Part shown: positions 11,998 to 16,249 of the stretch, piece after piece
Numbering within the stretch: position 1 is the stretch's first letter
How the letters are laid out: each line of letters starts with the position of its first letter
From: Sanyastnella coralliicola
Lineage (GTDB): Bacteria > Bacteroidota > Bacteroidia > Flavobacteriales_D > Sanyastnellaceae
NCBI RefSeq assembly: GCF_030845195.1
Contig: NZ_CP132543.1
Location: 3,551,501 to 3,615,500, forward strand
Direction of reading: 5' to 3'
Length of the DNA: 64,000 nt
Program-made: the position numbers and the translations under genes
The notes under the pieces: model-generated
The model's database searches: none
Seen by the model: the letters and a program-made list of their open reading frames with translations, nothing else
Told to the model about the DNA's origin: nothing

Positions 11998-12366
11998 TCA
12001 GACAGAAGCAGGATGAGATATCTTTCCTCTTCGAATGAGGTTAATCTCAACTCGCTGAGGTCGAAGGATTTCAGCGATAATGTCTTCTACTTCTTCCGGG
12101 TCGAATTCAGCACACGAAAACAGGTCAATTGCGGCATAAGCACGCTCTGGCCAGGTGTGAATACTTAAATGACTTTCAGAAAGAAGGTAGACCCCTGTGA
12201 CACCGACAGGCTCAAATTGTTTGTAGGAAGCGTTAAGCACAGATAGGTTCAACCGTTCGGCGATAGCCTCTAGTAAAGGCTCTACCGAATTGCGATAAGA
12301 GATGAGGTCTGGATCCACTCCAAACACATCCCAAATTCCATGAAATCCTAATGCTTGCTCCTCCAC
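11998..12366 (-). CDS. speD: S-adenosylmethionine decarboxylase proenzyme
   Basis: Makes decarboxylated SAM, the aminopropyl donor for spermidine. The 122-residue length fits the short bacterial class. The self-cleavage motif LSESHLSIHTWPE is intact (pyruvoyl group from Ser65), and the conserved Cys85 lies in DLFSCAEF. The start is GTG 12366: an in-frame TAA lies just upstream and there is no ATG before the conserved region. It is the last gene of a minus-strand run with the spermidine synthase-like protein and a lipoprotein (15-bp gap). Confidence 0.93.
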   Translation of the reverse strand: MEEQALGFHGIWDVFGVDPDLISYRNSVEPLLEAIAERLNLSVLNASYKQFEPVGVTGVYLLSESHLSIHTWPERAYAAIDLFSCAEFDPEEVEDIIAEILRPQRVEINLIRRGKISHPASV

Positions 12367-12381
12367 GTCCGAAAAGATGGC

Positions 12382-12903
12382 TTACTCTGCCATCATCATC
12401 ATAAGGAACTCCTCTTCGTCTGCGAGTTTGAGGAGAGACGCGTAGCTTTCAGAAGCGTCAACTTCGATTACTTCAGGAGTTGTCTCACGTGGACCGTAAT
12501 CCCACTCGATTGGGTTTACCAATTCACCGATCACTTTGTAAGGACCGTCGAACTCCATTCCTAGGAAGTTAACTGTTTGCTCAGGGATAGAAGATGTTGC
12601 GAAAGCACCCATTGTACCGTAGATCTCTTCGTACATGATGTACTCAGAGTGTGATGGGTTCATCATGTACATATCTTGTACAAAGTCGAACTCAACAGGC
12701 TCTTCACCTGGGACCGTAATTACGTGAACACCGTGTCCCATTTCAACCCATGCAACATCACGCGGAGGGATTTCCACGTTCAACGAGTCGATTGAAACTT
12801 CGATATAATCGTTTGTTGGGTTGTCAACCGCTACAGCAACAAGATCAGGACCACAAGATGCAAGTCCAACAGCAACAAAGAGGAAAAGAATAATTCGGTT
12901 CAT
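12382..12903 (-). CDS. Lipoprotein of unknown function in the polyamine run
   Basis: A 173-residue protein not recognised. Signal peptide with lipobox (MNRIILFLFVAVGLASC, acylated Cys17). The mature part looks like a small beta-rich domain (NPTNDYIEVSIDSLNVEIPP) followed by an acidic tail ending EEEFLMMMMAE. It lies between the spermidine synthase-like gene (63 bp) and speD (15 bp), so it is probably co-transcribed. No polyamine function can be read from the sequence. Confidence 0.75.
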   Translation of the reverse strand: MNRIILFLFVAVGLASCGPDLVAVAVDNPTNDYIEVSIDSLNVEIPPRDVAWVEMGHGVHVITVPGEEPVEFDFVQDMYMMNPSHSEYIMYEEIYGTMGAFATSSIPEQTVNFLGMEFDGPYKVIGELVNPIEWDYGPRETTPEVIEVDASESYASLLKLADEEEFLMMMMAE

Positions 12904-12966
12904 CGGTCTAATTTAATCGGAAGCAATATAGACAAATTGCCTATGCCTGCACGTTAAAGGCGGCAA

Positions 12967-14499
12967 TTAATGCGTTTGTCCGGGTTGTGTTTGGAATTCC
13001 GCCTTCCACTTGTTCCAATCGTGGAGATAATAATCCAAGATGATCGGGTGATCGAGGGAGTTTGTTTGCACGTCTTTAATGGGAACGTCAGGTGGCAACA
13101 TGAATAAGTACTGAACCAGTTCAGTATCTAAATACTCCACACCTTCAGCAGCAGTGAAGCTTTTGAGCTGATGAAGATTATTCTTCTTACTGGCCATGAT
13201 GAATCCCCAGTCGCCAAAGGAAGGCACGTTTGAATGGTAAGCCGTTACGTTTTCAAAGGCTTCTTCCATGGTTCGGTAGATGCAACTGAAAACGCTGTTC
13301 GCGAAGTAGATCTCCCCTGCTTGGGTTACAAATACACCGTCTTCCTTTAGAAGGTTATTCGCCAAAAAGTAGAACTGGCGACTATATAACTTGGCTAGGC
13401 TTTGATCACTCGGGTCTGGAAGATCAGCGATGATCACATCGTAACTTTCCGTGTTCTGCACGAGATAGGTGAAAGCATCTCCCTGAATCAGCTTCACTCG
13501 AGGATCACTCGCTGCCCCTTCATTAATATTGACCAAGAAAGGATTGGTCTTTGCCAAATGAAAGATCATGGTGTCAATATCGACCACATGCACCTCTTTA
13601 ACGTTCGCATGTTTCAAGGCCTCGCGGCTCGCCAGATTCTCTCCTCCACCTAGAATTAGTACGCGTTCAACGTCTCCCTTCAATGCAATAGGAACATGCA
13701 CTAACGGCTCGTGATAACGATGCTCGTCTTTGGATGAAAACTGGATGATGCGATTGAGGTACAAACGCAGATCGTCTTCCTTCTGCGTCAACACAATCTT
13801 TTGGTAAGGTGTCTGCTCGTTGTATACGATCGGGTGCTTATAGATCTTCTGATCCCAGACTTGCAAAAGATGTGATGCTTTAAAGGTTAGGCCTCCTAAT
13901 ACTAGTAGCGCTGCGACGCCTAATACCATGCTTCCTCGCTGTTCGCGGAAATGGACATAGTTCAATACCAAGCCCAGAATAATATTCAAGGCGCCGAACA
14001 TCAGCGAAGAGTAAAACAGGCCGACAAACGGAAGGAGGATAAAGGGGAACACAAGGGTTGCTAACAAACCTCCGATATAGTCTAGCGACAAGATCTTTGA
14101 AAGCGAATCTTTGAGGCTATCGTCATCAGAGTACGTCAACAGTGGCACCTCCATTCCGGTAAGGAACCCGATCAAAAAGACGATCCCGAGACAGAAGAGC
14201 TGCAAACTCTGGGGGCTAACCGTTACAAACAGCCAGTAAACAAGGGGAACAGATATTCCGCCAATGAGTCCTAATAGGTACTCGATACGCACGAAATACA
14301 TCAACGATCTTCCCGAGTGAAATTTCGAAACATAGGCCCCAATACCCATTGAAAAAAGGTAGACACCAATGACGATTGAAAACTGCTTCACTCCATCACC
14401 CAAAAAATAGGTTGCGGCGGTGCTAATCAAGAGCTCATAAACGATCGAACAGAGGCCGGCAATGAAGACAGAAGCTGAAAAAAGAATTTTATTTCCCAA
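12967..14499 (-). CDS. Membrane-anchored spermidine synthase-like protein
   Basis: 510 residues: about six to seven hydrophobic helices (residues 1-215), then a spermidine synthase-type Rossmann domain. Visible are VLILGGGENLASREAL (usually GGGDGxxxRE), the acidic ribose-binding position in VHVVDID, GDAFTYL, and ADLPDPSDQSLAKLYSRQFY, where the family's catalytic Asp lies. GGGEN in place of GGGDG is a change in the cofactor/substrate loop, so the exact amine product is open. With speD 600 bp downstream, aminopropyl transfer from decarboxylated SAM is the natural inference. It is divergent from the YgiB-like gene, with 45 bp between the starts. Confidence 0.82.
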   Translation of the reverse strand: MGNKILFSASVFIAGLCSIVYELLISTAATYFLGDGVKQFSIVIGVYLFSMGIGAYVSKFHSGRSLMYFVRIEYLLGLIGGISVPLVYWLFVTVSPQSLQLFCLGIVFLIGFLTGMEVPLLTYSDDDSLKDSLSKILSLDYIGGLLATLVFPFILLPFVGLFYSSLMFGALNIILGLVLNYVHFREQRGSMVLGVAALLVLGGLTFKASHLLQVWDQKIYKHPIVYNEQTPYQKIVLTQKEDDLRLYLNRIIQFSSKDEHRYHEPLVHVPIALKGDVERVLILGGGENLASREALKHANVKEVHVVDIDTMIFHLAKTNPFLVNINEGAASDPRVKLIQGDAFTYLVQNTESYDVIIADLPDPSDQSLAKLYSRQFYFLANNLLKEDGVFVTQAGEIYFANSVFSCIYRTMEEAFENVTAYHSNVPSFGDWGFIMASKKNNLHQLKSFTAAEGVEYLDTELVQYLFMLPPDVPIKDVQTNSLDHPIILDYYLHDWNKWKAEFQTQPGQTH

Positions 14500-14509
14500 C
14501 GGATTAGTC

Positions 14510-14517
14510 TAAGTTTG
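14510..14517 (+). promoter_or_regulatory. -7 element (TAAGTTTG) of the ygiB-ygiC-like pair
   Basis: A perfect TAnnTTTG. It decides the start of the next gene: the in-frame ATG at 14515 lies inside the element, so translation should begin at ATG 14545, right before the lipoprotein signal. Confidence 0.5.
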
Positions 14518-14544
14518 GATTCGTTGAATCAGACACGACCAAAG

Positions 14545-15096
14545 ATGACTAAATTTCCTTCAACACGCCTATTTGGCCTCTCAATGGTTTTCGCACTAGG
14601 TATCACCCTGATCCTCAGTGGTTGTACGGACGATGACGGGCACCCTCGTCTCATGGAATACGACGAGAAAACTGTACACGAAAGCACGAAAGGAGTCGAA
14701 ACTGAGCTCGAGGAGCAAGAACCAGGTGACGAATACCTCATTCTTGATGAGCGCATGATCGATGAAAAAGAAGATTCTCGCGCTATCGTTCACAACCTTG
14801 ATGGAACTGTAGACACACTATCTTTTGCGAGCCTTGCGAACGACGACGGATCTAACCCTCGTTACTCACCAATGCGCGCTGTATTGATGTATGGTCTTGC
14901 TCGTTCATTCTTTAACCCGAACATGGGGAATGTTCGCCCTGATCCTAGCTACTACAAAACGCCAGGTGCCTACAACAAATCTGCTGGTCTTCGTGAAGAC
15001 ATGATGTCTTCGTCACGTACACGCAGCGTGCGCACTCCAAAAGGATCTTCTAAAGGATACGGAGGTGGAAAGTCGTTCCGTTCTTCTGGAGGATGA
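14545..15096 (+). CDS. YgiB-like lipoprotein with Gly/Ser/Arg-rich, diglycine-ended tail
   Basis: A 183-residue lipoprotein: MTKFPSTRLFGLSMVFALGITLILSGC, acylated at Cys27. An acidic stretch (EKTVHESTKGVETELEEQEPG) is followed by a helical segment, then a basic Ser/Arg/Gly tail ending GKSFRSSGG. In E. coli a DUF1190 lipoprotein (YgiB), which from memory also ends in a Ser/Arg/Gly tail, is paired with the ATP-grasp protein YgiC. Here the downstream gene is the YgiC relative and overlaps by 32 bases. Sequence similarity to YgiB is only in overall layout and context, so the family call is inference. Confidence 0.65.
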   Translation: MTKFPSTRLFGLSMVFALGITLILSGCTDDDGHPRLMEYDEKTVHESTKGVETELEEQEPGDEYLILDERMIDEKEDSRAIVHNLDGTVDTLSFASLANDDGSNPRYSPMRAVLMYGLARSFFNPNMGNVRPDPSYYKTPGAYNKSAGLREDMMSSSRTRSVRTPKGSSKGYGGGKSFRSSGG

Positions 15097-16249
15097 TCGC
15101 TTTCGCGAAGTCCGCGTTCCAAAGAAAAAACACATCCCAGCAAAACTGCACTGGTTCCTCGGTGAGGAATACTTCAGTGGAGAATTGTTGAGCGTATACC
15201 CGAGTGAGGTGCGTGCTTTCAAGGCGGTTGCCGAAGAAGCGTTTGACATCTTCCTCAAGGCTACCGATCATATCATCGAGCACAAGGGTCTCGAAGCTCT
15301 TGGCATCCCTGCGCTATTTCACCCAGTCATTGAATACACTTGGAAAAACCGGGATCGTCACCCCTTCTTGATAGGCCGTTTCGATATCAACGGAGTATTT
15401 GATCGGGTCAAAGGAAAGGTCATCGAGTTCAACGCAGACACGATGAGTTCCATTCCGGAAACCATCATATGGCAAGAATTCCAGCGCAAGCAACTCGGAG
15501 AAAACGAATATCAATTCAACGAACTCGCCATTCGTCTGGAGCAACAGCTTCGAACGATTCGCAGTCGTTTCCCTGGAGAAGAGTCTAACCTCACCGGAAG
15601 TTCGTTTGGATACATTGAAGACCAGCTCAACATTGACGCGGTGATGGAACAAGCTTACAAAGCTGGATTCCTCGTTCAAAATGTTGACGTTCCTGAAATC
15701 ATCTTCTCAGAAGAAGGCGTCTTTTACGAAGCGGGAAGCGAATACCAACGTGTAGACGTCTGGTACAAAATGGCCCCATGGGACTGGACCTTCAACGAAG
15801 AGCCTGGGTTGGCACAAATCCTATCAGACCTCATCATGAATGAGCTGGTTTTGGTGCTGAACCCTCCTTACACGGCTATTTGGCAGAACAAGCGTTTCCT
15901 TGCATACATCACGGAGCACTTCCCGAATGACGTCATTGCCAAGACTTACCTGGAACGACCAACGGATATGCGTGATGGCCTGGTAGAGAAGCCCATCTAT
16001 GGACGAATTGGCGAGAACATCGTACTGCACGATCCTGACGGTGACCTGCAACGTAGTCAAGGCGACTTCGGCAATCAGCCAAAGATCTATCAAGAGTATC
16101 TACCGCTAGCCGTAGATGAAGAAAAACACTACTACCAAGCCGGTGTTTTCATGTGTGACGGTCCGGCTGCACTGAATTTACGCTGTCAAGAATCTAAGAT
16201 CATGACAGACGACTGTGAGTTCATGTCGCACGTCATTTCGGAATATTAG
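15065..16249 (+). CDS. Glutathionylspermidine synthase-like ATP-grasp amide ligase (YgiC family)
   Basis: 394 residues, the length of YgiC/YjfC and of the synthetase half of GspS, without an amidase domain. Family features seen: IGRFDINGVFDRVKGKVIEFNADTMS (metal/ATP region), YKMAPWDW, LVLNPPYTAIWQNKRFLAYI, KTYLERP, QEYLPL, and the C-terminal ALNLRCQESKIM. GspS joins the glycine carboxylate of glutathione to spermidine; YgiC-like members have no firmly known substrate. The start is GTG 15065, inside the upstream lipoprotein gene; the ATGA at that gene's stop is in another frame and gives no protein. Facing polyamine genes lie 600 bp away. Confidence 0.85.
   Translation: MESRSVLLEDDRFREVRVPKKKHIPAKLHWFLGEEYFSGELLSVYPSEVRAFKAVAEEAFDIFLKATDHIIEHKGLEALGIPALFHPVIEYTWKNRDRHPFLIGRFDINGVFDRVKGKVIEFNADTMSSIPETIIWQEFQRKQLGENEYQFNELAIRLEQQLRTIRSRFPGEESNLTGSSFGYIEDQLNIDAVMEQAYKAGFLVQNVDVPEIIFSEEGVFYEAGSEYQRVDVWYKMAPWDWTFNEEPGLAQILSDLIMNELVLVLNPPYTAIWQNKRFLAYITEHFPNDVIAKTYLERPTDMRDGLVEKPIYGRIGENIVLHDPDGDLQRSQGDFGNQPKIYQEYLPLAVDEEKHYYQAGVFMCDGPAALNLRCQESKIMTDDCEFMSHVISEY

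Follow-up and report, generated by a model that had tools for sequence, protein, structure and literature searches.

A compact block of five genes in Sanyastnella coralliicola combines polyamine-synthesis genes with a YgiC-type ATP-grasp amide ligase and a lipoprotein that ends in Gly-Gly. We propose that the ligase, acting on the precursor of this lipoprotein, phosphorylates the carboxylate of the C-terminal glycine and couples a polyamine there through an amide bond, a reading to which we assign a probability of roughly 0.6. The block lies in a stretch of 64,000 nucleotides (the window; contig NZ_CP132543.1, positions 3,551,501 to 3,615,500 of the forward strand) in a genome that consists of a single 4.1 Mb contig. 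The open reading frame (ORF) listing of the window places three of its genes on the minus strand and two, divergent from these, on the plus strand. An earlier note on this sequence had described speD and a spermidine synthase-like gene divergent to a "YgiB-like" lipoprotein ending in SSGG and an overlapping ligase, and had suggested that the ligase attaches spermidine or another amine to the lipoprotein tail. All of the named genes are present in this arrangement, and both the SSGG end and the overlap were confirmed. The three features on which the proposal turns are the following.

15065..16249, plus strand: YgiC-type ATP-grasp amide ligase, 394 amino acids (aa) from GTG (PF03738, PDB relatives, predicted model, fold search and invariant residues)
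14515..15096, plus strand: YgiB-like lipoprotein, the proposed amine acceptor, C-terminus ...GYGGGKSFRSSGG (ORF, lipobox and orthologue alignment)
15046..15093, plus strand: last 16 codons of the acceptor lipoprotein (SSKGYGGGKSFRSSGG), its most conserved run of 16 residues (alignment of 16 orthologues)

The ligase and its lipoprotein partner

The GTG codon gives the longest ligase ORF, and the true start may be further downstream. The protein matched PF03738 at 225 bits (cut-off 29.3) over residues 33-391 of 394, and the Pfam scan found no amidase domain and no other family. PF03738 without an amidase is the domain composition of the YgiC/YjfC peptide-spermidine ligase family. Of the bifunctional glutathionylspermidine synthetase/amidase (GspSA), only the synthetase part is represented, and the score for NF007801 (84 bits against a cut-off of 882) places the protein outside that family. 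The nearest solved chains were YgiC (7uk8) and YjfC (7uk6), followed by trypanothione synthetase and E. coli GspSA. A predicted model (mean pLDDT 84) has the ATP-grasp fold, with Foldseek TM scores of 0.80 both to YjfC 7uk6 and to the synthetase half of GspSA 2io8, and thus agrees with the glutathionylspermidine synthase-type family assignment made in the earlier note. Among the residues identical in E. coli YgiC and YjfC are R105, D107, E121, N123, N275, K276, K309, R314, Q343 and R373; the invariant residues also align with GspSA and are presumed to be ligand residues.

The acceptor lipoprotein has 193 aa from a TTG at 14515, or 183 aa from an ATG at 14545, with the lipobox LSGC and the C-terminus KSFRSSGG. 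The end of its gene, stop codon included, shares 32 nt with the longest ligase ORF. The tail is the best-conserved part of the protein: the last 16 residues ranked first among 168 windows of this size in an alignment of 16 orthologues (truncated L066 omitted), and their mean identity to the window lipoprotein was 0.81, compared with 0.45 for the region before the last 40 residues. A terminal Gly-Gly is found in all 17 lipoproteins of the window clade, while the chance level, taken from mechanical ORFs that are not verified genes, is 3 of 655. The earlier note would have abandoned its proposal had the terminal Gly-Gly not been kept alongside the ligase; in this clade it is kept throughout. The strict motif RGG[FYWL] occurs in none of the 17 tails, most of which have KGYG or RGYG instead. 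PF06693 (DUF1190) did not match the window lipoprotein or its orthologues in L039 and L059. The description "YgiB-like" therefore holds for position and tail and fails for Pfam membership.

The window clade comprises the window, L039, L040 and L059-L072; the 98% identical sister (L058/L038) was not counted. The closest relative of the locus is in a metagenome-assembled genome of the Flavobacteriales, whose ligase is 98% identical. In a ligase tree built by a quick method from 66 rows, the window-clade ligases form one group (17 rows, SH-aLRT 99). The Gly-Gly label changes 8 times on this tree, compared with a shuffled mean of 17.4, but the included near-copies favor such clustering and several rows are long; we thus used the tree solely for the grouping of the window-clade ligases.

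Linkage to polyamine genes and proposed mechanism

The three genes on the minus strand are listed below.

11998..12366, minus strand: speD, S-adenosylmethionine (AdoMet) decarboxylase (PF02675, TIGR03330; sole PF02675 match in the genome at E <= 0.001)
12967..14499, minus strand: membrane-fused polyamine aminopropyltransferase, SpdS-like domain at residues 259-441 (NF002956, NF037959, PF01564 and PDB alignments)
12382..12903, minus strand: 173-aa lipoprotein without assigned function, conserved partner of speD, predicted beta-rich (comparison of loci, alignment and model)

SpeD scored 109 bits for PF02675, above its cut-off, and 109 bits for TIGR03330 (cut-off 75.65), which identifies it as a prokaryotic AdoMet decarboxylase. 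The aminopropyltransferase is of the PRK03612 type (NF002956, 541 bits, cut-off 472; PF01564, 141 bits at residues 259-441) and also exceeds the cut-off for NF037959, "fused MFS/spermidine synthase" (49.6 bits, cut-off 40). It is the only Spermine_synth match in the genome at E <= 0.001. Its first ~200 residues, judged by eye, are putative membrane helices. The catalytic domain can be aligned to those of solved spermidine synthases, and the aligned part takes in a D-x-x-D-P stretch that is presumably significant for these enzymes.

Conservation of these genes beside the ligase pair is nearly complete within the clade. We found speD in 17 of 17 loci and the 173-aa lipoprotein in 15; the aminopropyltransferase is present in 16, the exception being L066, which starts close to a contig edge. 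Gene order takes three forms: all divergent, as in the window; the 173-aa lipoprotein and speD convergent behind the ligase (Flavobacteriaceae, Saprospiraceae); or, in L039 and L040, speD following the ligase immediately and in the same direction. Blastp with the window proteins of all three genes (E <= 1e-3) gave no hits in the 8-17 kb stretches around 17 further ligase loci of Bacteroidota (L041-L057). The polyamine link is thus tight, yet confined to one ligase clade in our sample of the phylum. It was the link to polyamine genes that had stood out in the earlier note, which proposed to look for speD beside the ligase pair in other Bacteroidota. That search succeeded within the clade and gave no hit in the 17 further loci. 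The association of this ligase family with polyamine genes and lipoproteins is not new, having been published (PMC11237479, citing Li 2019).

In the mechanism that we envisage, SpeD would supply decarboxylated AdoMet, from which the membrane-anchored aminopropyltransferase would make a spermidine-type (aminopropyl-bearing) amine, the likely source of the conjugated group. The ligase would then activate the C-terminal carboxylate of the lipoprotein and form an amide with the amine made next door. By eye, the N-terminus of the ligase is not signal-like, so ligation must precede or accompany export; the modified precursor would be exported and lipidated afterwards, and in the periplasm or at the surface its Gly/Ser/Arg tail would bear a covalently attached polycation. 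The comparative evidence (Gly-Gly in every clade member and the conserved linkage) favors the earlier suggestion that the ligase joins an amine to the tail, and the chemistry is inferred.

Partner tails at other ligase loci

We extended the comparison to 71 ligase loci, 63 of which have a nearby partner with a Gly/Ser-rich tail. The plasmid loci (24: 19 from 60 listed of 158 matching records, and 5 from 20 listed of 136) and phage loci (4, from 30 listed of 67 matching records) were picked by hand for diversity. Excluded from the counts were L038/L058, which duplicates the window at 98%, L024, whose 21 bits fall short of the cut-off, and second copies from the same genomes. The background set consisted of 655 non-overlapping mechanical ORFs of at least 90 aa from the compared loci, with partners and ligases removed. 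A first automatic choice of partners by Gly/Ser/Ala/Arg content found them in 50 of 66 loci (Gly-Gly ends in 31, two small final residues in 43); annotated partners escaped it, and in several GC-rich loci (e.g., L078-L081) shadow ORFs led it to wrong genes. The final table was compiled manually, on the basis of gene annotation, adjacency and tails.

Forty of the 63 partners end in Gly-Gly, compared with 3 of 655 background ORFs. Both last residues are Gly, Ser or Ala in 57 (background 34), and the last residue alone is one of these in 61 (background 130). The motif RGG[FYWL] occurs within the last 45 residues of 30 partners and of 2 background ORFs. By group, Gly-Gly ends were found in 17/17 partners of the window clade, 3/4 of nearby Bacteroidota, 17/24 of other bacteria and 3/3 of phages. 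The other 23 partners, including all 15 from the more YgiC-like Bacteroidota ligases, end in GS, SS, HA, GE, AA, AS or CG. A strict Gly-Gly rule was therefore rejected, and Gly-Gly as a requirement is not supported. At the plasmid and phage loci the partners vary widely in length; some of those scanned are DUF1190 proteins and others have no Pfam match.

Because the hand-made table selects for tails, we also made a prospective test. Before five further plasmid loci were fetched, we wrote down the prediction that each would have a neighboring lipoprotein or membrane protein with an RGG-aromatic-like motif and an end of two small residues, mostly Gly-Gly. Scored on the tail end, the prediction held in four of the five loci (L116, L117, L119 and L120, ending in GG, GS, GS and GG); the proteins of L116 and L119 have putative membrane attachment only. 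The fifth, L118, had no neighboring gene with such an end. "Mostly Gly-Gly" was not borne out (2/4), the strict RGG[FYWL] motif was found in 2/4, and 2/4 are DUF1190 proteins, an already known partner type.

Phages carry the pair as well. In Achromobacter phage Motura (L112:1183-4008), the genes for a homospermidine synthase, a 127-aa lipoprotein with the end SFSAGG and the ligase follow directly on one another; the lipoprotein matches DUF1190 weakly (20.9 bits, cut-off 22). Lipoproteins ending in SSGG are encoded by the second gene upstream of the ligase in Aeromonas phage avDM9-HANS (L111:1949-2557; DUF1190, 77.6 bits) and in Delftia phage PhiW-14 (L114:1888-2613).

Relation to described systems

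The window module is a variant of a known ligase-lipoprotein pair. In the E. coli pairs ygiB-ygiC and yjfM-yjfC, too, the gene immediately upstream of the ligase encodes a lipoprotein or membrane protein that ends in Gly-Gly (YgiB ...SSRSMGG; YjfM ...RGHWGG). YgiC and YjfC share family, length and invariant residues with the window ligase at 22-23% identity, and their RefSeq product name is peptide--spermidine ligase. YgiB and YjfM are DUF1190 proteins, whereas the window lipoprotein is without a DUF1190 match, and the E. coli neighbor genes that we examined include no speD or aminopropyltransferase; in their place, the yjf operon carries PspA and DUF350. The activity of YgiC and YjfC as peptide-spermidine ligases is attributed to Pederick 2023 in PMC12568646, PMC10948618 and PMC12270671, in line with the peptide-modifying roles that, according to the earlier note, comparative work had suggested for YgiC-type ligases.

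The closest description of such gene sets that we found concerns PspA/CesT-Tir operons (Ravi et al. 2024, PMC11237479). There, an ATP-grasp ligase occurs with a DUF1190 lipoprotein in one operon group, variants of which add an AdoMet decarboxylase, and a second group has a membrane-fused spermidine synthase-like enzyme with a different lipoprotein; the window module has both gene sets together. Operons of this ligase family can carry PspA, DUF350 or ion channels, in that article and also in loci compared here. PspA and DUF350 are absent among the module genes, and DUF350 had no match in the genome (PspA was not searched genome-wide), which leaves the module outside the PspA-type operons.

The amide chemistry has precedents. 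Besides peptide-spermidine ligation by YgiC and YjfC, spermidine is amidated to the C-terminal Gly-Gly of SUMO and ubiquitin in eukaryotes, adding 127.15 Da (PMC12270671). That system uses E1 and E2 enzymes rather than an ATP-grasp ligase and involves no exported lipoprotein.

What was already known is thus the association of the ligase with polyamine genes; the shared tail end was not found in the literature searched. The accessible portion of PMC11237479 contains no discussion of the partner C-terminus, and we found neither a statement naming that C-terminus as a substrate nor a named physiological substrate of YgiC or YjfC, although more may be stated in Pederick 2023, Li 2019, Sui 2012 and Iyer 2009. 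The last of these, by its title, deals with ATP-grasp ligases and peptide modification of proteins and may cover related ground, so priority for the tail-substrate idea cannot be claimed. The shared tail end makes YgiB and YjfM concrete candidate substrates in E. coli K-12. If our reading is true, it would add a protein modification to bacteria, link polyamines covalently to the envelope, and give a role to DUF1190 and other unnamed lipoproteins, including those of phages.

A broader reading is, in our judgment, evenly balanced when its parts are taken jointly: that YgiC-type ligases are dedicated to the C-terminus of the membrane protein encoded as their operon partner and add a polyamine before export; that the partner has a Gly/Ser/Arg tail, often with an RGGFG-like motif, and ends in Gly, Ser or Ala; and that this extends over several bacterial phyla, including Gram-positive bacteria, and phages, with the window clade bringing its own amine-making enzymes. 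If so, bacteria would have a C-terminal polyamine modification whose product resembles the SUMO-spermidine conjugate and whose enzyme is different, the envelope would gain a lipoprotein-tethered polycation, and clusters taken as glutathionyl-polyamine pathways would need to be re-read.

Alternative explanations

Several observations weigh against the proposed reading. The amidation chemistry is arrived at by comparison. The ligase is presumably cytosolic while the lipoprotein is exported, so the timing is assumed. Related membrane fusions with AdoMet decarboxylase reportedly do not make spermidine. Among 40 genomes of the order (own genome included), relatives that lack the ligase carry polyamine genes: 10 genomes have speD and 12 have Spermine_synth above its cut-off, compared with 2 that have the window ligase (the own genome, G000, and G001), so polyamine genes also exist without this ligase. 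Partners outside the clade were chosen partly by their tails, which inflates the totals given above, and Gly-Gly is missing from every partner of the more YgiC-like Bacteroidota ligases. Two Bacteroidota partners end in Glu (L014 and L016, tails GGGE and GAGE after an SRGGFG motif). Eight of the 71 loci were counted as partnerless (L004, L012, L041, L052, L055, L086, L113 and L118); L004 is cut by a contig end, and in L012 the upstream ORF has RGGFG but ends in Arg. As the L012 genome is a draft with 70% completeness, this may be a genuine exception or a sequence flaw. Lastly, the clade tail sits within the longest ligase ORF, which could boost its conservation.

The last point can be taken further as an explanation in its own right, namely that the Gly-Gly end is a by-product of the overlapping ligase frame. 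The lipoprotein stop does lie inside the longest ligase ORF in 17/17 clade loci; the start of that ORF is putative. Gly-Gly or small ends also occur where the genes do not overlap, as in E. coli, where 5 nt separate ygiB and 2 nt separate yjfM from the ligase gene, and in L044 and L045, and where the partner lies downstream of the ligase (L076, L085, L090, L116 and L120), so that this explanation is largely refuted and has hardly any standing left. Somewhat better placed, and still improbable, is the view that the polyamine genes and the envelope pair adjoin by history and share no chemistry. The patchy ligase and the speD and Spermine_synth genes present without it in the order speak for this view; against it, the genes stay together through three arrangements from Flavobacteriaceae to Saprospiraceae and a further family, and base composition over 12-16 kb of the window resembles the flanks, which does not indicate a recent insertion.

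It is also conceivable, if unlikely, that the ligase acts on small peptides or glutathione, and that the lipoprotein is a co-regulated envelope protein whose Gly/Ser tail serves export or surface contact. PF03738 is named for glutathionylspermidine synthetase, the phage hss-gss cluster is discussed in PMC9992855 as potential glutathionylhomospermidine formation, and the genome has glutathione-synthetase ATP-domain matches (182 and 24 bits). The window ligase, however, shares with GspSA the fold and the conserved ATP-grasp residues and not the amidase domain, and its nearer relative YgiC is stated to lack GspSA activity (PMC12506659, citing Sui 2012). The two glutamate-cysteine ligase families that we searched for had no match in the genome. 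Glutathione is thus unlikely to be the main substrate, and a role on small peptides or glutathione would leave the small partner ends across unrelated protein bodies and phages unexplained.

The alternative that we take most seriously, while still considering it doubtful, shares the core claim and differs on the source of the amine. Here the C-terminus would be modified with homospermidine, putrescine or another non-spermidine amine, and SpeD and the aminopropyltransferase would have a different target or work on the conjugate once it has been formed. Away from the module, the genome has adjacent genes for an arginine decarboxylase-like protein, an agmatinase and a deoxyhypusine synthase-family enzyme (L115:4449-7707; G000:C1:3490448-3493706), a possible route to putrescine and homospermidine judging from the encoded proteins. 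The first scored 163 bits, below its family cut-off; the agmatinase was over the cut-off (TIGR01230, 199 bits), as was the deoxyhypusine synthase-family enzyme for PF01916 (145 bits), which fell below every NCBIfam cut-off. The homospermidine synthase next to the phage Motura pair and the lack of speD matches in the 17 other Bacteroidota ligase loci point the same way, as does the reported failure of related fusion enzymes to produce spermidine. On the other side stand the near-constant presence of speD and the aminopropyltransferase in the clade loci and the fact that both are the sole matches to their families in the genome. We favor conjugation of an amine made by the module itself, but the second polyamine route leaves the amine unsettled and counts against this part of our reading. 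Together with the Motura synthase, it makes spermidine the weakest detail of the earlier proposal, and spermidine as a necessary amine is not supported. The earlier observation is therefore confirmed and its interpretation partly supported.

Other features of the locus and minor observations

The 173-aa lipoprotein between speD and the aminopropyltransferase had been overlooked in the earlier gene inventory, which was otherwise right in the genes that it named. Neither it nor the SSGG lipoprotein reaches any Pfam family cut-off. One of five predicted models of the 173-aa protein exceeded a mean pLDDT of 80; it is beta-rich, and its fold search gave weak hits with none at E <= 0.001, the best (1.7e-3) being the N-terminal domain of AlgF. 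Promoter and terminator scans of the locus showed no excess over shuffled sequence. A genome of the same genus (G002) had no match for the ligase, speD or Spermine_synth, and the contexts of two family members with speD and without a hit to the window ligase (G009, G010) yielded nothing usable.

Considering the tails of L014, L016 and L012, the counts may make the tail class look tighter than it is. A tethered amine could possibly have a role in envelope charge or in channel block, polyamines being known channel blockers. A potassium channel is encoded by the second gene after the ligase in a Pseudarthrobacter plasmid (L081), and an ion transporter by the first gene after it in a Deinococcus plasmid (L082). 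In a Roseomonas plasmid (L085:3926-6276), two ligase genes lie in a row beside DUF350 and a DUF1190 protein that ends in Gly-Gly.

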